From: Janthinobacterium sp. GW456P
GTDB taxonomy: Bacteria > Pseudomonadota > Gammaproteobacteria > Burkholderiales > Burkholderiaceae_D
DNA: 64,000 nt
Assembly: GCF_002127655.1 (NCBI RefSeq)
Contig: NZ_NEHB01000017.1
Location: forward strand, 1-64,000
Direction of reading: 5' to 3'
Both the position numbers and the translations under genes were made by a program. The number at the start of each line of letters is the position of its first letter. Position 1 is the stretch's first letter. Below the pieces are notes generated by a model that did not search any database, had not been told where the DNA came from, and saw only the letters and a program-made list of their open reading frames with translations. Below, piece after piece: positions 54,734 to 62,693 of this stretch.

Positions 54734-55345
54734 ATGAACGATACGCTTCTCCTGCTGGGTTTTGCCACCACGCCGCTTGAACTGATTTCCTTTGTCCTGG
54801 CACTGACAACCGTTGCGCTGAACATCCGCCAGAACCACTGGGCGTGGCTGTTCGCCATCATTTCCTCGGCCGCCTACGGTTTCGTGTTTTTCGAGTCGCG
54901 CCTGTATGGCGACATGGCCTTGCAGCTGCTGTTCATCAGCGTCTCGTGCTGGGGCTGGTATCAGTGGCTGCATCCGTCCAGTGGCGGCAAGACCCTGCCG
55001 GTCACGCGGCTCGATGGCCGTGGCTGGCTGGCCTGCGCGGCGGGCTGGCTGCTGGGCTTCCTGCTCATCGCCTGGCTGCTGACGACGACGGACACGGACG
55101 TGCCCCACGCGGACGGCTTCCTCACGGCAGGCAGCCTGGTGGGGCAATTCCTGCTGTCGCGCAAGAAACTGGAAAATTGGGTCGCCTGGATCGTCGTCGA
55201 CGTGCTGTATGTGTGGCTGTATGTGCACAAGGGCCTGACCCTGACGGCCGTGCTGTACGCCTTCTTCGTGGTGATGGCCATCATCGGTTTGCTTGCATGG
55301 AAAAAGTCGGCACCGGCCGCGCCTGACGCCATGGTCCTCAAGTGA
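54734..55345 (+). CDS. pnuC: PnuC-family vitamin transporter (PnuT-type suspected)
   Basis: This 203-residue protein has about 7-8 membrane helices with the PnuC core: TPLELISFVLALTTVALNIRQNHWAW, the WGWYQWLH motif on the substrate path, and SRKKLENWVAWIVVDVLYVWLYVHKG. PnuC proteins let nicotinamide riboside, thiamine (PnuT) or riboflavin (PnuX) diffuse in, and a kinase then traps the substrate. The kinase gene follows with a GTGA overlap. The convergent TonB receptor with a TPP riboswitch suggests thiamine. ATG 54734 gives the usual length; an upstream in-frame ATG exists at 54689. Confidence 0.88.
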   Translation: MNDTLLLLGFATTPLELISFVLALTTVALNIRQNHWAWLFAIISSAAYGFVFFESRLYGDMALQLLFISVSCWGWYQWLHPSSGGKTLPVTRLDGRGWLACAAGWLLGFLLIAWLLTTTDTDVPHADGFLTAGSLVGQFLLSRKKLENWVAWIVVDVLYVWLYVHKGLTLTAVLYAFFVVMAIIGLLAWKKSAPAAPDAMVLK

Positions 55346-55893
55346 CGGCGCCTTGCGTGCGCGTGGCGATCCTGGGCGCGGAATCGTCGGGCAAGTCGAC
55401 TTTGGCGGCAGCCCTGGCCGAGCGCTACGACACCGTCTGGGTGCCGGAATACTTGCGTGAATTTGTCGAAACGCAGGGCAGGGTGCCGGTCGCGCAAGAC
55501 CAGTACGGCATCGCGCTGACACAAGTCGAACGCGAGGCCGCCGCCGCCGCGCAAGCGCGCGGCTTCCTGTTCTGCGACACGACGCCCTTGATGACGGCTG
55601 TGTACAGCCGCCATTATTTCGATGGCGCCGATGCGCCGCTGGCCGCGCTGGCGGACGCCACGCGCTACGACTTGACCCTGGTGACGGCGCCCGACAGCCC
55701 GTGGGTGGCCGACGGCTTGCAGCGCGAATCGGAAGCCGTGCGCCAGCTGATCTACCGCTACCTGCTCGACGCGCTCGACGCGCGCGGCATCGCCTATCAC
55801 GTGCTGCGCGACAGTCTGGAGGCGCGCCTGGAACAGGCGGCGCCCCTGCTGCAACAGGCGCTTGCCGCAGCGCCTGTTATTTCCCTCAATTAA
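55342..55893 (+). CDS. P-loop kinase (NadR-C/nicotinamide-riboside-kinase-like)
   Basis: This 183-residue ATP-binding protein starts with GTG in overlap with the transporter stop. The Walker A is GAESSGKST (12-20). WVPEYLREFVETQG and FCDTTPLMTAVYSRHYF are the conserved blocks of the NadR C-terminal kinase family. It probably phosphorylates the vitamin imported by the PnuC-type protein, either nicotinamide riboside by family or thiamine by gene context. Its stop shares TTAA with the convergent TonB receptor gene. Confidence 0.85.
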   Translation: MTAPCVRVAILGAESSGKSTLAAALAERYDTVWVPEYLREFVETQGRVPVAQDQYGIALTQVEREAAAAAQARGFLFCDTTPLMTAVYSRHYFDGADAPLAALADATRYDLTLVTAPDSPWVADGLQRESEAVRQLIYRYLLDALDARGIAYHVLRDSLEARLEQAAPLLQQALAAAPVISLN

Positions 55894-58037
55894 AAGTCGA
55901 ACTGCGCCGACACCTTGAACGTGCGGCTGGCGCCCGGGTACAGATAGCCATCGGACTCCGGCGTCACGTCGCGCCAGTAGAACTTGTCGGCCACGTTGTT
56001 GACGCTAGCGCGCAGCACGGCGCGCGTGCCGGCGATGCGCGTGGCGTAAGCGGCGCCCAGGTTGAACACGTGGTACGACGGCACGAAGGTGGTGTTGTTG
56101 TACTCGAATGCCTTCTTGCCGGCAAACTCCCAGCTGCCATTGACGCTCAGGCCCGCCACCTGCTGCACCGCGTAGTCCGCATGTACGGCCGCCTTGAAGG
56201 CGGGCACGTTCGGGACGCGTTTGCCGTCGAGGTCGGCATTGCCGGTGCCCGACTGCTGGCTGTTCAGGGCCGTCACGGAGGCACCCAGGCTCAGGCTGGA
56301 CGATGCCTTGCCCTGTGCCGACAATTCCAGGCCGCGGTGCTGGGCCTGGCCTTCGCGCACGAAGTAGCCGGCCGTGTTCTGGAATTCCAGGCCCTTGCGG
56401 ATCTGGAACAGGCTGGCCGCCACCATGAAGTCCGGCGTCACATCCATCTTGGCGCCCAGTTCGATCTGCTTCGAGCGGCTCGGTGACAGTTCTTCATTGG
56501 CATTCATCGCCTTGCGGTCGGCCGTGCCGCCATGTTCCATGCCCTGTGAATAGGCCACATACACGGAGACATTGTCGAGCGGGGTGTAGACGAGCGAGAC
56601 GTTGGGCAGCAGGAAGTCGTGCTTGGCGCGCACTTCCTTGTCGGCCTTCAGCACATACTGGTAGCCATCGACATCGATATGGCGCAAGCCGCCATGCAGC
56701 TTCCAGTTCGGCGCCAGGCTGACGATGTCCTGCACGAAGACGGCGTTTTCCGTATCTTTGCGCACCAGGCGCACGGGACCCGTGACGCCGGGCGACGTGC
56801 CGACGATCTGCGGCTGGTAGATGTTGCTTACGCCGACCCAGTCATATACGTACAGGCCGGCGCGGTCCTTGCGGCGGAAGGTCGACACGCCGGCCGTGAA
56901 TTCATGGCGCAGCGAACCGGTGGCGAACTTGCCCTGGATCATGGCTTGCGCGCTCAGCGGCTTTTTCGTCTCGCCCAGGCTGCGGTAGTCGTATACGTCG
57001 TAGTCGCCATTGCCGCAGAAGCCGGGGTACAGGTCCTGTCCGCTGCAGCCGTACGGGAAGGCCGTGTAATCGTCGCGCTTGAACGAGTGCTGGTTGGCCG
57101 ACACGGTGGCGCGCCAGTCGTCATTGAAGGCGTACTGGAAGCGCAGGCCGATATTGCTGGTGACGGTTTCCACGGGGCGCGTCCATGGCTGCAGGTTGAG
57201 CATGGCGTCGGCGCTGATGCCGGTCGGCAGGGTCTTATTGTTCAGCAGCTGGAAGCCCGGCGCCGTCGCCTGTGCCTTGTCCTGGTAGTCGGCATCGAGC
57301 TGCAGCAGCGCTTGCGGCGAAATCTGCCAGTCGAAGGCGCCGGAAATGAACTTGCGGTTGCCGTCCGCGCCCTTGATGTAGGAGCGCAGGCGCTCGGCCG
57401 CCACGTTGATCCGGTAGCCGAAGCGCGTGTCGTCCAGGCGGCCGCCCAGATCGACGGCGCCGTACAGGGTGCCCCGCTCGCGCGTTTCCACGGTGACCGT
57501 GCGCAGCGGTGCGGCGGTCGGGCGCTTGACGATGAAGTCGATCACGCCGCCCGGCGCGGCCACGCCTGCCTGCAAGCCTGCCAGGCCCTTCAGCACTTCG
57601 ATGCGTTCCTTGTTTTCCAGCGGAATTTGGGTGTCGCCAGGAATGGCCACGCCATCCTTGCGGTAGCTGGAATTGTTGTCGAGCTTGAAGCCGCGGATCG
57701 TGAACTGTTCCGCATAGCCGACGGCGTTGTAGGCATCGTTGATGCTGGCATCGAGCTTGGCGGCATCGCTGAGATTGCGGATCTGTAAATCCTGCATGTC
57801 TTTTTGCGAGATGACGGTGACGGACGCCGGCGTCTGCAGCAGCGGCGCATCGCTAAAGCCGCCGACGGAGGCGCGCCTGGCGGCCGGCGCCTTGCTGGCC
57901 GTGACGACGACTTCGGCCATGCTCGGCGCCTGCGGGTCGGCGGCTGCGGTGCTGTCATTCGCGGCGAAGGCAGGCGCGGCAAACGCGTGCAGGATGGCCA
58001 GGGTCAAAACAGAAACGGATAAATTCGGTGTGGACAT
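55890..58037 (-). CDS. TonB-dependent receptor, probably for thiamine compounds
   Basis: This 715-residue outer-membrane receptor has a signal peptide ending AAPAFAAND, a TonB box (MAEVVVTAS), a plug domain (QTPASVTVISQKDM, TIRGFKLDN, IEVLKGLAGLQAGVAAPGGVIDF) and a 22-stranded barrel ending in FKVSAQFDF. In overall style it resembles siderophore receptors. The TPP riboswitch in its leader shows it is repressed by thiamine pyrophosphate, so thiamine or a thiamine derivative is the likely ligand. ATG 58037 was chosen for its normal signal peptide over TTG 58118. Confidence 0.93.
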   Translation of the reverse strand: MSTPNLSVSVLTLAILHAFAAPAFAANDSTAAADPQAPSMAEVVVTASKAPAARRASVGGFSDAPLLQTPASVTVISQKDMQDLQIRNLSDAAKLDASINDAYNAVGYAEQFTIRGFKLDNNSSYRKDGVAIPGDTQIPLENKERIEVLKGLAGLQAGVAAPGGVIDFIVKRPTAAPLRTVTVETRERGTLYGAVDLGGRLDDTRFGYRINVAAERLRSYIKGADGNRKFISGAFDWQISPQALLQLDADYQDKAQATAPGFQLLNNKTLPTGISADAMLNLQPWTRPVETVTSNIGLRFQYAFNDDWRATVSANQHSFKRDDYTAFPYGCSGQDLYPGFCGNGDYDVYDYRSLGETKKPLSAQAMIQGKFATGSLRHEFTAGVSTFRRKDRAGLYVYDWVGVSNIYQPQIVGTSPGVTGPVRLVRKDTENAVFVQDIVSLAPNWKLHGGLRHIDVDGYQYVLKADKEVRAKHDFLLPNVSLVYTPLDNVSVYVAYSQGMEHGGTADRKAMNANEELSPSRSKQIELGAKMDVTPDFMVAASLFQIRKGLEFQNTAGYFVREGQAQHRGLELSAQGKASSSLSLGASVTALNSQQSGTGNADLDGKRVPNVPAFKAAVHADYAVQQVAGLSVNGSWEFAGKKAFEYNNTTFVPSYHVFNLGAAYATRIAGTRAVLRASVNNVADKFYWRDVTPESDGYLYPGASRTFKVSAQFDF

Positions 58038-58140
58038 AGATTGCTCGTGGTTCAAGCCGACTCTGTACAGAGCACGGCAGGCTGCTTGTTCGGCTGGCGC
58101 CAACGCAGGAGCTATCAAAGGAGGGAAGGTACTTTGCGCT

Positions 58141-58288: not shown

Positions 58289-59446
58289 CTACAAACTGAG
58301 TTCGAGCACCTTGCGGCTGACGGCGGGCGTCACTTCGCGCTGTTCGCCCAGCGCCGTCATGCCGTGCCCTTCCAGGGCGGACACGACGGCGTCCACGCTC
58401 GCATGGTTCAGGCCGTAGTCGGCCAGGCGCGTCTTGACGCCCATGTGGCGGAAGAAGAATTCCGTGCGCGCGATGGCCGCCTCGATACGGCCATCCTCGT
58501 CGCCGCCATCGAGGCCCCACACGCGGGCTGCGTATTGCAGCAGCTTGGCGCGCTTGGCCTGCTTGCGCACGCGCAGCATGCTGGGCAGGATGATGGCCAG
58601 CGTCTGCGCATGGTCGAGCTCGTACAGGGCCGTCAATTCGTGGCCGATGGCGTGCGTGGACCAGTCTTGCGGCACGCCCACGCCGATCAGGCCGTTCAAG
58701 GCCAGGGTGGCGCTCCACATCACGTTGGCGCGCACGTCGTAGTCGTTCGGGTGCGACAGCGCTTTCGGGCCTTCCTCGATCAGGGTCAATAAAATGCCTT
58801 CGGCGAAGCGGTCCTGTACGGACGCGTTCACGGGGTAGGTCAGATACTGTTCCATCACATGCGCGAACGCATCGACGACGCCATTGCCCACCTGGCGCAG
58901 CGGTAATGTGAAGGTCTTCGACGGGTCCAGCACGGAGAATTTCGGATATACCTTGCGGCTCATGAACGAGCGCTTTTCCTGCGTGGCCTTGCGCGTAATC
59001 ACGGCCGAGCCGTTCATTTCGGAACCCGTGGCCGGCAAGGTGAGCACCGTGCCGAAGGGCAGGGCGGCCTCGACGATCTTGCCGCCTTTCGCCAGGATAT
59101 CCCACGCTTCGCCCTCGTGCAGGGTGGCGGCGGCGATGAACTTGGTGCCGTCGACCACGGAGCCGCCGCCGACGGCCAGCAGGAAATCGATGCGCTCGCT
59201 TTTCACGAGGGCCACGGCCTGCATCAGGGTTTCATAGCTGGGATTGGGTTCGATGCCGGAAAATTCCAGCACCGTGTGGCCGGCCAGCGCCGCCCTGACT
59301 TCATCGTAGACGCCGTTCTGCTTGATGCTGCCGCCGCCATACGTCATGAGCACTCGGGCCTGCGGCGGGATCAGCGCCGTGATGGCGGCGATCTGGCCCT
59401 GGCCGAAGAGGATTTGCGTCGGATTGTAAAAATCGAAATTGAACAT
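58289..59446 (-). CDS. yqhD: NADPH-dependent aldehyde reductase / iron-type alcohol dehydrogenase YqhD
   Basis: This 385-residue cytoplasmic oxidoreductase reduces short-chain and toxic aldehydes with NADPH. The dinucleotide site is GGGSVVDGTKFIAAA (94-108). All four metal ligands align with E. coli YqhD: Asp192, His196 (VDAFAHVMEQ), His265 (DWSTHAIGHE) and His279 (ELDHAQTLA). Its promoter region is shared with the divergent small ferritin-like gene. Confidence 0.94.
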   Translation of the reverse strand: MFNFDFYNPTQILFGQGQIAAITALIPPQARVLMTYGGGSIKQNGVYDEVRAALAGHTVLEFSGIEPNPSYETLMQAVALVKSERIDFLLAVGGGSVVDGTKFIAAATLHEGEAWDILAKGGKIVEAALPFGTVLTLPATGSEMNGSAVITRKATQEKRSFMSRKVYPKFSVLDPSKTFTLPLRQVGNGVVDAFAHVMEQYLTYPVNASVQDRFAEGILLTLIEEGPKALSHPNDYDVRANVMWSATLALNGLIGVGVPQDWSTHAIGHELTALYELDHAQTLAIILPSMLRVRKQAKRAKLLQYAARVWGLDGGDEDGRIEAAIARTEFFFRHMGVKTRLADYGLNHASVDAVVSALEGHGMTALGEQREVTPAVSRKVLELSL

Positions 59447-59588
59447 GTGGCTCCCGCTGCCGAGGTGTAGGCTGTTGCTGAGCCATGATTATGGCCGAAC
59501 GGGTGAAATTGTGTCGTGGACGCTTGAGCTTTTCGTCCGCGCGGTGGAGAATGCAGCCGATGTCACCACCACGCGAAAAGGAATGCGC

Positions 59589-59894
59589 ATGACCACCGTC
59601 CCACTGGAAGAATCCGGCTTGCCGGCCACCGCGCTCGACATGCACCGCGCCATCGGCGCCACCATCGCCGCGCTGCAGGCGTTGGACTTGAACAGCCAGC
59701 GTTTCGAGGCGTGCACGGATCCGGAACTGCGCCGCGTGCTCGCGCATGCGGGTGACACCAGCCGCAAGGAAGCGGCCATGCTGCTCGAATGGATGCGCCG
59801 CCGCGACGCGCGCCTGGACGCGGCCTTGAAGGAAGCGCTGTTCAAGGCGGGGCCAATTGTTGCTCAGTATCACTATGACGAGAAAATATTGTAA
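59589..59894 (+). CDS. Small helical protein related to encapsulated ferritin (EncFtn), without ferroxidase ligands
   Basis: This 101-residue protein has two long helices. From memory of the Rhodospirillum rubrum EncFtn sequence, residues 19-90 align without gaps, sharing HRAI, the QR-x5-TDPEL turn, LAH, AAM-x-LEW-x-RR-x-DA and GPI. The ferroxidase ligands Glu32, Glu62 and His65 of that protein become Ala28, Ser58 and Glu61, and the entry-site residues Glu31, Glu34 and Trp38 become Ala27, Gln30 and Leu34. It cannot oxidise iron in the known way. No encapsulin gene and no encapsulin-targeting tail are visible. AAAGGA is spaced correctly for ATG 59589. It may be cotranscribed with the Imm26 gene (93 bp on). 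Confidence 0.72.
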   Translation: MTTVPLEESGLPATALDMHRAIGATIAALQALDLNSQRFEACTDPELRRVLAHAGDTSRKEAAMLLEWMRRRDARLDAALKEALFKAGPIVAQYHYDEKIL

Positions 59895-59987: not shown

Positions 59988-60470
59988 ATGAAATCATTAC
60001 CATACCGAGAAGGCAGCTGGTTTGCCGTGCCCCTGCCGGGCGGCGGTTATGCCGTCGGCGTGGTGGCGCGCAGGGCGCCTGCCGGGCGCATCATGCTGGC
60101 GTATATGTTCGGGCCGAAGCGCGACAGCTTGCCCACACTGGAAGAGCTGGAAGGCTTGCGGCCGGAACAGGCCGTTCGCCGCCTGCGCACGGGCGACATG
60201 GCGCTGCTCAACGAGCGCTGGCCCCTGCTGGGTGACAGCCGTCACTGGGAGCGCGACGCCTGGCCCATGCCGGCCTTTATCCGCCGCAATGAATCCCTGC
60301 AGCGCGCCTGGCGCGCCAGCTATGCGGACGCCGATCCTGCCAAGCTGAACCGAGAGGAGTCAATCCCCTTCGACACGCCAGGCATGGAAAGCGATTCCCT
60401 GTACGGCTATGGGGCGACGGAATTGTTGATGAGTAAATTGCTGGCGCAGGAGCAGGCATCAACGGCGTAG
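59988..60470 (+). CDS. Immunity protein 26 (Imm26) family protein
   Basis: This 160-residue cytoplasmic protein has the Imm26 pattern: YREGSWFAVPLPGGGYAVGVVARR, then YMFGPKRDSLPTLEEL, RLRTGDMALLNERWPLLG and WPMPAFIRR. Imm26 proteins neutralise toxins of contact-dependent and type VI/VII systems. No toxin gene lies beside it, so it is an orphan that may defend against other cells. The GGGGGAG site is spaced for ATG 59988. Its stop codon lies inside a REP-like palindrome. Confidence 0.8.
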   Translation: MKSLPYREGSWFAVPLPGGGYAVGVVARRAPAGRIMLAYMFGPKRDSLPTLEELEGLRPEQAVRRLRTGDMALLNERWPLLGDSRHWERDAWPMPAFIRRNESLQRAWRASYADADPAKLNREESIPFDTPGMESDSLYGYGATELLMSKLLAQEQASTA

Positions 60471-60557
60471 GTCGGATTAGGCCGGCAGGCCATAATCCGA
60501 CAACATTGTTGGCTATTTTTGTCGGATTACGCGGTTCCCGCTAATCCGACCTACGCC
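60464..60557. repeat. REP/BIME-like palindromic element
   Basis: The outer arms GGCGTAGGTCGGATTAG (60464-60480) and CTAATCCGACCTACGCC (60541-60557) are a perfect 17-bp inverted repeat. Inner arms TAATCCGACA (60493-60502) and TGTCGGATTA (60520-60529) let each half fold into its own hairpin, giving two opposed units. This is the layout of a bacterial interspersed palindrome. It probably serves as a bidirectional terminator for the two convergent genes. Each gene's TAG stop lies within an outer arm. Confidence 0.85.
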
Positions 60558-61909
60558 GCTGGCAAGCTGATCTGAAACGCCAGGCCGCCGCCTTCGCGGT
60601 TGCGCACCTGCAGTTCGGCACCGTGGCGCAGCAGCACGCGGTCGACGATGGCCAGGCCAAGGCCGGCGCCATTGGCCTGCCCGCGTGCCGTGTCGAGGCG
60701 GGTGAACGGCTTCATCAATTGCTCGATCTTTTCCGCCGGCACGCCCGTGCCGTGGTCCTGTACCTCGATGATCACCTTTTTCGCGCCGTGGCTGGTGCGC
60801 ACGTGGCAGACGATGTCGATTTCCGTCATGTCGCTGCCCGGCGTCTTGCCATAGCGGCGCGCATTTTCGATCAGGTTGTTCAGCACGCGGCGCAGGTCGG
60901 TGGGGTTGCCCATCGCATGCGCGCCGTCGGCGATGCTGGCGTTGACCTTCACGTCCGGCAGGCGCATCGCTTCGCGCGTCATGTCGTGGAGCAGGCCGCT
61001 GAGGTCGACATCGGTAAAGCTCGACGCTTCCGTCGGCTTGGCGTAGTCGAGGAACTGGCCGATGATGGCGTCCATCTGCCCGATATCGGACTGGATGCCT
61101 TCGCGCGCCTCGTCCGACAGGTTGGCCATTTCCACTTCCAGCTGCATGCGCGCCAGCGGCGTGCGCAAGTCGTGCGAAATGCCGGCCAGGATCACGGCGC
61201 GGTCCGATTCCACCTGTTTCAGATCATCGACCATCTGGTTGAAGCTGCGGTTCGCCTCGATGATTTCGATCGGTCCCTTTTCCGGCAGCGGCGCCGGCTG
61301 CTTGCCCTTGGCGATGTCGCGCGCGGCCGCCGTCAGACGCGACAGCGGCAGATTGATCAGGCTGGAAATGATGGCTGCGCCCAGCAGCGACAGCAGCGAT
61401 ACCAGGCTGGCCCAGCCCAGCCACTGGAAGCCCGTGAGGCCGCGCAGGCGCTCGCGGTCCAGCATCAGCCAGTACTCGTCGTCGTCGATCTTGAAGCTGA
61501 CCCAGAAGCCGGCCACGCCGTTGACGCGCGCGGAAAAGCGCGTGTCCTTGCCCAGCTTGGCTTTCACCAGTGCCTCGATCTCGGGCATCAGGTAATTGTC
61601 GGGCGGCGGCTCGATGCGGTCGTCCTCTTCCAGCGAGAAGATGCGGATGCCTTCGTTGCTGACGAGGTCGAACAGCAGCTCGCGGCGCAACTCGGGCGCC
61701 GAGTGCGTCAGTGCCGCATGCGTGATGGTGACGACGGAAATGATCTGGGCGGAAATCTGCTGCGCCTGCGGCTCGCGCTGGATGACGGAAATCATGCCGA
61801 TCCAGGTGATCATGCTGACGGTGGTCAAAGTACCCAGCAGCAAAAAGGTGCGCCAGAACAGGCCGCTTTTCAGCCGCGCCAGGCTGATATCGGGAACAAG
61901 CTTCATCAT
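60551..61909 (-). CDS. envZ: EnvZ-like sensor histidine kinase
   Basis: This 452-residue inner-membrane kinase has a first membrane segment (about 20-42), a periplasmic sensor of about 120 residues, a second membrane segment (about 162-186), HAMP, HisKA with His246 in AGISHDLRTPLARMQLE, and an ATPase domain (NNLIENARRYG, VQDHGTGVP, GAGLGLAIVDR). It follows ompR with a 13-bp gap, the usual osmotic and envelope-responding pair that controls porins. Its stop codon is supplied by the REP-like repeat. Confidence 0.93.
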   Translation of the reverse strand: MMKLVPDISLARLKSGLFWRTFLLLGTLTTVSMITWIGMISVIQREPQAQQISAQIISVVTITHAALTHSAPELRRELLFDLVSNEGIRIFSLEEDDRIEPPPDNYLMPEIEALVKAKLGKDTRFSARVNGVAGFWVSFKIDDDEYWLMLDRERLRGLTGFQWLGWASLVSLLSLLGAAIISSLINLPLSRLTAAARDIAKGKQPAPLPEKGPIEIIEANRSFNQMVDDLKQVESDRAVILAGISHDLRTPLARMQLEVEMANLSDEAREGIQSDIGQMDAIIGQFLDYAKPTEASSFTDVDLSGLLHDMTREAMRLPDVKVNASIADGAHAMGNPTDLRRVLNNLIENARRYGKTPGSDMTEIDIVCHVRTSHGAKKVIIEVQDHGTGVPAEKIEQLMKPFTRLDTARGQANGAGLGLAIVDRVLLRHGAELQVRNREGGGLAFQISLPAA

Positions 61910-61922
61910 GCCTCGCCAGCGA

Positions 61923-62693
61923 TCAGCGCGGCTGTCCGTCCGGGATGAAGACGTAGCCGAGGCCCCACACGGTCTGGATGAAGAGCGGGCTCGACGGATC
62001 TGGTTCGATCAGCTTGCGCAGGCGCGAAATCTGCACGTCCAGGCTGCGGTCGAACACTTCGTATTCGCGTCCGCGCGCCAGTTCCATCAGTTTTTCGCGC
62101 GACAGCGGCTGGCGCGCATGGCGGGCAAACACTTTCAGCACGGAAAATTCTCCCGTGGTCAGCGGCACCGTTTCGCCATTCTTTTTCAAGGTGCGCGTGC
62201 CCAGGTCGAGCACGAAGTCGCCGAACTCGAAGGTTTGCGGCGTTTCCGACGGCGCGCCCGGGATTTCATCGGGACCCTTGCGGCGCAGCACGGCGCCGAT
62301 GCGGGCCACCAGTTCGCGCGGATTGAACGGTTTCGGCAGGTAGTCGTCGGCACCCATTTCCAGGCCCACGATGCGGTCCACGTCCTCGCCCTTGGCCGTC
62401 AGCATGATGATCGGCGTCTGGTCGCCCGCGCCGCGCAGGCGGCGGCAGATCGACAGGCCGTCTTCGCCGGGCAGCATCAGGTCGAGCACCAGCAAGTCGT
62501 AGCGTTCGCGCAGCCACAGCTTGTTCATGGCCGTCGCGCTCTCCGCCGTGAAGACATTGAAACCCTGTTCGGTCAGGTAGCGCCGCAGCAGGTCGCGCAG
62601 GCGCACATCGTCATCGACCACCATGATTTTTGCCTGGTGGCCATGGATCGATTGCGTTGTTGTATTGCTGCCGGTAGTGGAGGTTGTGGTCAT
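61923..62693 (-). CDS. ompR: OmpR-type response regulator
   Basis: This 256-residue regulator has a receiver domain with acidic VVDDD, phospho-acceptor Asp71 in LLVLDLMLPGEDG, and KPFNPRELVARIGAVLRR. A winged-helix DNA-binding domain follows (LTTGEFSVLKVFARH, SLDVQISRLRKLIEPD, IQTVWGLGYVFIPDG). The N-terminus is about 20 residues longer than E. coli OmpR and is Thr/Ser-rich. It is the first gene of the ompR-envZ operon. Confidence 0.94.
   Translation of the reverse strand: MTTTSTTGSNTTTQSIHGHQAKIMVVDDDVRLRDLLRRYLTEQGFNVFTAESATAMNKLWLRERYDLLVLDLMLPGEDGLSICRRLRGAGDQTPIIMLTAKGEDVDRIVGLEMGADDYLPKPFNPRELVARIGAVLRRKGPDEIPGAPSETPQTFEFGDFVLDLGTRTLKKNGETVPLTTGEFSVLKVFARHARQPLSREKLMELARGREYEVFDRSLDVQISRLRKLIEPDPSSPLFIQTVWGLGYVFIPDGQPR

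Follow-up and report, generated by a model that had tools for sequence, protein, structure and literature searches.

The stretch of DNA analysed here, 64,000 nucleotides of contig NZ_NEHB01000017.1 from Janthinobacterium sp. GW456P (hereafter the window), carries a gene for a relative of encapsulated ferritin (EncFtn) that has lost the ferroxidase ligands of its family. The open reading frame (59589..59894, forward strand) starts with ATG, has the sequence AAGGA 6 bases upstream and encodes 101 amino acid residues. The protein scores 77.2 bits with the EncFtn-like profile PF22277, which has a curated cut-off of 27, and its predicted single-chain structure has the EncFtn chain fold, composed of two long helices and a C-terminal helix; profile and fold both agree with an earlier note, made from the sequence alone, that had placed it in this family. 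Scores lie below the cut-off for TIGR04535 (NCBIfam, encapsulin-associated ferritin-like protein; 60.5 bits, curated cut-off 125) and for the EncB family NF058679 (30.1 bits, cut-off 90). In size, the protein corresponds to the s-FLP class (about 100 residues, with neither a long tail nor a targeting peptide). No C-terminal targeting peptide was seen by eye: the chain ends 11 residues past the GPI motif and is unlike the peptides of table 2 in PMC11202242, where the entry for the s-FLP class is given as putative only. The gene is a variant of the known EncFtn family, of single origin as far as the tree tells, and it is under selection. Because the iron-holding residues are lost while the rest of the protein is under strong selection, this former iron enzyme has probably been retained for another job. 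A literature search, with most subscription journals beyond its reach, found no published ligand-less EncFtn branch.

Loss of the metal ligands

In the EncFtn of Rhodospirillum rubrum (R. rubrum), the di-iron site is made of Glu32, Glu62, His65 and Tyr39, the inner site of Glu31 and Glu34, and the outer site of His57, Glu61 and Glu64 (PMC5012862). The gap-free alignment places R. rubrum position n at window residue n-4, so that codons 27-61 (59667..59771, forward strand) span all ten former metal-site columns. At positions 31, 32, 34, 38, 39, 57, 61, 62, 64 and 65, the wild-type R. rubrum protein (5da5) reads E E E W Y H E E E H, and the window protein reads A A Q L N H T S K E. The six substitutions listed in the earlier note, at Glu32, Glu62, His65, Glu31, Glu34 and Trp38, are all correct against 5da5; Tyr39, Glu61 and Glu64 are also gone, which leaves His57 as the sole published metal-site residue. 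For Trp38, the replacement by leucine is confirmed and the entry-site role given to it is not: text searches of PMC5012862 and PMC11202242 returned no 'Trp38', and NE0167 of Nitrosomonas europaea has leucine there despite its kept ligands. Position 38 is counted among the ten columns because that note named it. The bacterial EncFtn signature HxxxEExEH (PMC11202242) reads HAGDTSRKE in the window protein, and the ExxH di-iron site is replaced by Ala, Ser and Glu at 32, 62 and 65.

To place these changes in the family, 90 distinct proteins from 130 loci were read. At positions 31, 32, 34, 38, 39, 62 and 65, 37 of them read EEEWYEH; the other 53 have losses in the triad 32/62/65, of one member in 2 proteins, two in 12 and three in 39. 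When the window protein was read with the 120 database relatives listed for it, EEEWYEH was found in P0111 and P0112 only. Proteins were labelled as ligand-bearing or ligand-less by positions 32, 62 and 65. The main ligand-less group (n = 47), which includes the window protein, was chosen by short strings; two members, L110 and L045, entered it through a string match outside the C-terminal tail, and both lack the tail motif described below. L110 comes from a metagenome assembly named Janthinobacterium lividum, whose EncFtn-like protein is unlike that of the genus and in which the neighbour genes of the genus are missing; it is probably misnamed. Glu62 is missing in all 47 main-group sequences. 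The net charge of the ten metal columns is -6 in 37/37 ligand-bearing proteins and 0 in 35/47 of the main group. That another alignment register might restore the ligands is ruled out, since ExxH occurs nowhere in 46 of the 47 main-group sequences, the window protein included.

The tree comprised 80 rows, of which 60 were locus proteins (of the 90, at less than 95% identity) and 20 were chosen from the 120 database proteins. It was built on 91 columns, with the ten metal columns excluded; 17 of its forks are open, and one row, that of Massilia TS11, is long. All 49 ligand-less rows fall on one side of a single branch (96/85; 96% of bootstrap trees), and this clade is nested within ligand-bearing Oxalobacteraceae, so that the phylogeny of homologues proposed earlier as a check came out in favour of one ligand-less clade. 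As far as this tree tells, ligand loss would need one change, that is, one origin, and the loss is beyond chance because it is common to the whole clade. Two independent losses, a scheme prompted by the Sapientia-type pattern EKARCEN, are unsupported, as the tree needs one change. Trp38 and Glu61 are lost in 49/49 ligand-less rows, by one tree change each. The other residues are kept in varying numbers of these rows: Glu62 in 5, Glu64 in 5, Glu34 in 9, Glu32 in 13, His65 in 13, Tyr39 in 15, Glu31 in 20 and His57 in 27. Retention differs from ligand to ligand, and the loss was therefore stepwise. A core of Glu32, Lys62 and His65 is found in 4/49 rows.

Across the phylum, 398 genomes were sampled; apart from the window's own protein, 20 relatives in them scored above the Pfam cut-off, and 20/20 keep the seven residues; 12 matches below the cut-off were left unclassed. 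Four of the 20 differ at positions 57 and 64. A diverged EncFtn-like protein of four genomes from one genus outside the class (L160-L163) keeps the ferroxidase ligands, but its outer site carries Asn57 and Lys64. As far as sampled, ligand loss is confined to one lineage. This lineage includes genomes named Janthinobacterium, Duganella, Pseudoduganella, Rugamonas, Massilia and Sapientia, as found in a named-genome scan that is biased to the ligand-less clade, its patterns having come from a mainly ligand-less alignment.

Selection and retention of the gene

Invariance of positions 32, 62 and 65 in the ligand-bearing group is built in by the labelling, and a first test on five columns contained those three; the comparison was therefore made on the seven metal columns outside the labelling. 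None of the seven varies among the 37 ligand-bearing proteins, and every one does among the 47 main-group sequences; their mean entropy gain is 1.72 vs -0.03 for all columns (0/100,000 random draws as high). In sets thinned to 22 + 22 sequences, invariance was lost in 7/7 metal columns vs 18/37 non-metal columns (Fisher p 0.014; p 0.003 with all ten metal columns). In the same thinned sets, eight columns (17, 47, 49, 50, 76, 90, 93 and 96) are newly invariant in the ligand-less set, which is the more diverse of the two (mean identity 0.68 vs 0.81).

The ratio of non-synonymous to synonymous substitution rates (dN/dS, pooled Nei-Gojobori) outside the metal columns is 0.091 for 22 Janthinobacterium-type and 0.142 for 15 Pseudoduganella/Duganella-type sequences. 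Inside these columns, it is 0.224 and 0.442, respectively; the metal columns are therefore relaxed, yet not free. For 28 ligand-bearing family sequences, the value outside the metal columns is 0.146, from 50 usable of 378 pairs, the rest being too diverged.

The EncFtn-like gene occurs in 77/294 genomes of the bacterial family, and none of the 78 listed matches has an internal stop. It is present in 27/27 sampled genomes of the genus Janthinobacterium, a count read from the listing order, with no Janthinobacterium among the matchless genomes listed and 197 not listed. In this genus, the gene is no pseudogene. By the loci read, 29 of the 77 positive genomes have intact ligands; of 47 low-scoring genomes, 42 were read and five (G289, G092, G123, G179 and G146) were placed by score alone, while G215, with two fragments, is unclassed.

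Gene neighbourhood and encapsulin shell

Upstream of the gene lies a promoter-like site, TTGAGC-N17-GAGAAT (59524..59552, forward strand). Its general form TTGANN-N17-NANAAT, a pattern derived from nine of the same loci tested, is found upstream of 44/47 main-group genes (44/53 of all ligand-less) and 3/37 ligand-bearing ones, with a shuffle rate of 0.0016; the site is absent from the output of a general promoter scan. Downstream on the same strand, after 93 bases, an Imm26-like protein (PF15428, Pfam 5.2e-8) is encoded at 59988..60470. The two genes are 9-212 bases apart, on the same strand, in the 45 distinct loci that have both. The Imm26-like gene, of an immunity-protein family by its Pfam name, was seen in the 27 sampled Janthinobacterium genomes and in 25 genomes of the Duganella group, taken here to comprise Duganella, Pseudoduganella and Rugamonas; no toxin-like gene was found among its scanned neighbours. 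A terminator-like hairpin follows it (60497..60512, forward strand), which is no evidence by itself, as the scan found 1 vs a mean of 1.2 in shuffles.

On the reverse strand, a divergent iron-containing alcohol dehydrogenase gene (58289..59446, by Pfam) and a RisS-type sensor kinase with a response regulator (60551..62693; the kinase by Pfam, the regulator named by eye) flank these genes. By synteny, the intact-ligand orthologue of Massilia glaciei (L113) adjoins the same alcohol dehydrogenase, TonB receptor, NadR-like and PnuC genes, and those of Herminiimonas and Glaciimonas (L114, L116 and L117) adjoin the same kinase and regulator downstream. Because intact orthologues share its neighbours, vertical descent of the gene, with loss of the ligands along the way, is the most likely history. 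At 54734-58118, genes for a PnuC transporter, a NadR-like AAA_28 protein and a TonB-dependent receptor stand together, likewise in most related loci; the group looks like a nicotinamide riboside or nicotinamide mononucleotide uptake cluster.

The family-1 encapsulin profile PF04454 has no match in the whole genome (3/14 control genomes were positive), which, for family 1, extends the absence of a shell gene, first noticed near the gene, to the entire assembly. Nor has PF04454 any match in the 294 genomes of the bacterial family, 29 of which have EncFtn-like proteins with intact ligands; the family-1 shell is therefore also missing from ligand-bearing relatives. The reading as a non-catalytic branch without a family-1 shell thus has support, but the absence of this shell is not peculiar to ligand-less members. 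Ligand-bearing relatives without this shell are in line with the s-FLP class, which was first classed as non-encapsulated (PMC11202242). The family 2A profile encap_f2a matched neither this genome nor the controls. The genome has a single EncFtn-like gene; its 3 other ferritin genes fall into the classical Pfam family. In the sample of the bacterial family, the 77 positive genomes have one EncFtn-like match apiece, except G215 (two fragments at contig ends).

Interpretation

Taken at about 60% probability, our reading is that the protein is a shell-free EncFtn member whose ferroxidase site would no longer bind iron and whose ferroxidase work would have ceased. Profile, fold and clade-wide ligand loss agree with the non-catalytic branch suggested earlier, where non-catalysis is deduced from the ligands; in R. 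rubrum, E62A abolishes activity (PMC5012862). We infer iron-independent assembly and, for the assembled protein, a structural or binding function. R. rubrum EncFtn is a monomer in the apo form and assembles when Fe(II) is present, while the E32A and E62A mutants form decamers without iron, which was ascribed to lost repulsion (PMC5012862). At the four-helix-bundle interface of R. rubrum EncFtn, negatively charged glutamates prevent apo subunits from joining until Fe(II) forms a bridge between them. With ten metal columns of net charge 0 instead of -6, the ring of the window protein should therefore form without iron, like those of E32A and E62A, and the assembly would reach the decamer, or the extensive non-ferroxidase dimer at the least.

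Several points weigh against this reading. E32A and H65A lower activity by 40-55% only, and H65A is monomeric in solution, with all mutants decameric in the crystal (PMC5012862). His65 is missing in the window protein, as in H65A; since that mutant is a monomer in solution and the 10 chains of the triple mutant 5l8f are a crystal result, iron-free assembly is uncertain. Columns 28, 29, 33, 35, 58 and 66 around the former iron site have also lost invariance, and the looser interface that this suggests would fit a dimer without a ring. The gene is also absent from 13/25 Duganella-group genomes with the Imm26-like neighbour and present in 12/25. In these 13 genomes (L173-L185), the Imm26-like gene stands with the kinase/regulator pair and no EncFtn-like remnant was seen at an E value of 0.1; both flanks are in place in 10, and the downstream genes alone were found in 3. 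In the Duganella group, the gene is therefore dispensable.

A non-ferroxidase antiparallel dimer that does not close into a decameric ring is a tentative alternative, somewhat unlikely on present evidence. By our reading of the column data, most invariant positions of the main group are found near the helix ends and in the C-terminal region, whereas the central stretches of the two long helices, the location of the ferroxidase interface, have turned variable. The C-terminal helix belongs to the other, more extensive interface (PMC5012862); the decameric state of R. rubrum E32A and E62A in solution speaks against it. Slow gene decay, with the iron function abandoned, no task left and the gene lost lineage by lineage, appears improbable. 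The stepwise, uneven ligand loss and the 13 gene-less Duganella-group genomes would fit it, but the 78 listed matches without internal stops, the scaffold dN/dS of 0.09-0.14, the presence in 27 sampled Janthinobacterium genomes, the promoter-like site in 44/47 and eight newly invariant columns in the more diverse set are against it. Yet more doubtful is a new binding site for heme, another metal or a small molecule in place of the di-iron site, formed by His23, Cys46 or the His-Tyr tail. In the main group, His23 is invariant and Cys46 is present in 46/47, and most tails listed have a His between aromatics; but His23 is also invariant in the ligand-bearing group and Cys46 is the commonest residue there (25/37), so neither is new, and no new invariant ligand set has appeared at the former iron site. 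In human L ferritin, lysine replaces the Glu62 equivalent. A role as a light-chain-like subunit in mixed assemblies with active EncFtn, on the model of ferritin L and H chains, would match the absence of a ferroxidase centre in L-type subunits (PMC7557750) and the Glu32-Lys62-His65 core of 4/49 rows, but it is very improbable because the genome has one EncFtn-like gene, positive family genomes have single matches (G215 apart) and the three other ferritin genes are of the classical family. That single gene also makes the partner role suggested earlier unlikely in a heteromeric form.

The assembly formed by the ligand-less clade may have gained a partner. The C-terminal tail AQYHYDE (59862..59882, forward strand) represents a motif that characterises the later part of this clade: A-x-[YF]-x-Y is found in 45/47 main-group and 0/37 ligand-bearing sequences, and in 0/6 of the remaining ligand-less ones, a count partly built in by the string-based choice of the main group. 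The 45 loci with the motif are the same 45 that have the Imm26-like gene downstream, a co-occurrence that may reflect one shared ancestry. The C-termini of EncFtn lie around the ring circumference (PMC5012862), and the tail could therefore dock a partner; this is a lead only and the least certain part of our proposal. The Imm26-like gene as an obligate partner is weakened by its persistence without the EncFtn-like gene in 13/25 Duganella-group genomes, where it is 53-61% identical to the window's (56-62% in genomes with the gene). A speculative and rather unlikely extension is that an iron-gated ring became, once and stepwise, a constitutive metal-free scaffold whose rim, at the site where the cargo peptide of relatives exits, would carry a new docking tail that holds a partner such as the Imm26-like protein.

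EncFtn is known as a ferroxidase that forms its ring together with iron. The existence of a natural ligand-less branch with a selected scaffold suggests that the assembly is useful apart from iron oxidation, and the sequences intermediate between intact and ligand-less offer a natural series for testing the published charge-repulsion model of assembly.

Comparison with known systems

The window protein shares its size with the s-FLP class, but not the ExxH di-iron site: NE0167 of N. europaea (3k6c), an s-FLP (PMC11202242), keeps Glu31, Glu32, Glu34, Tyr39, Glu62 and His65, none of which is found in the window protein. In R. rubrum EncFtn (Rru_A0973, 5da5), two irons are bound at the dimer interface, and the protein, which bears a targeting peptide, is an encapsulin cargo. 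The window protein has neither these ligands nor such a peptide, and its genome has no family-1 shell gene. Ferritin light chains work in mixed shells with an active chain. Like the window protein, the light chain is a ferritin relative without a ferroxidase centre (PMC7557750), but no active EncFtn partner gene was found in the genome. The R. rubrum triple mutant E32A/E62A/H65A (5l8f) is the laboratory counterpart of the window protein, as both have the EncFtn scaffold without the ferroxidase ligands; unlike this laboratory-made protein, the natural one has additionally lost Glu31, Glu34, Trp38, Tyr39, Glu61 and Glu64.
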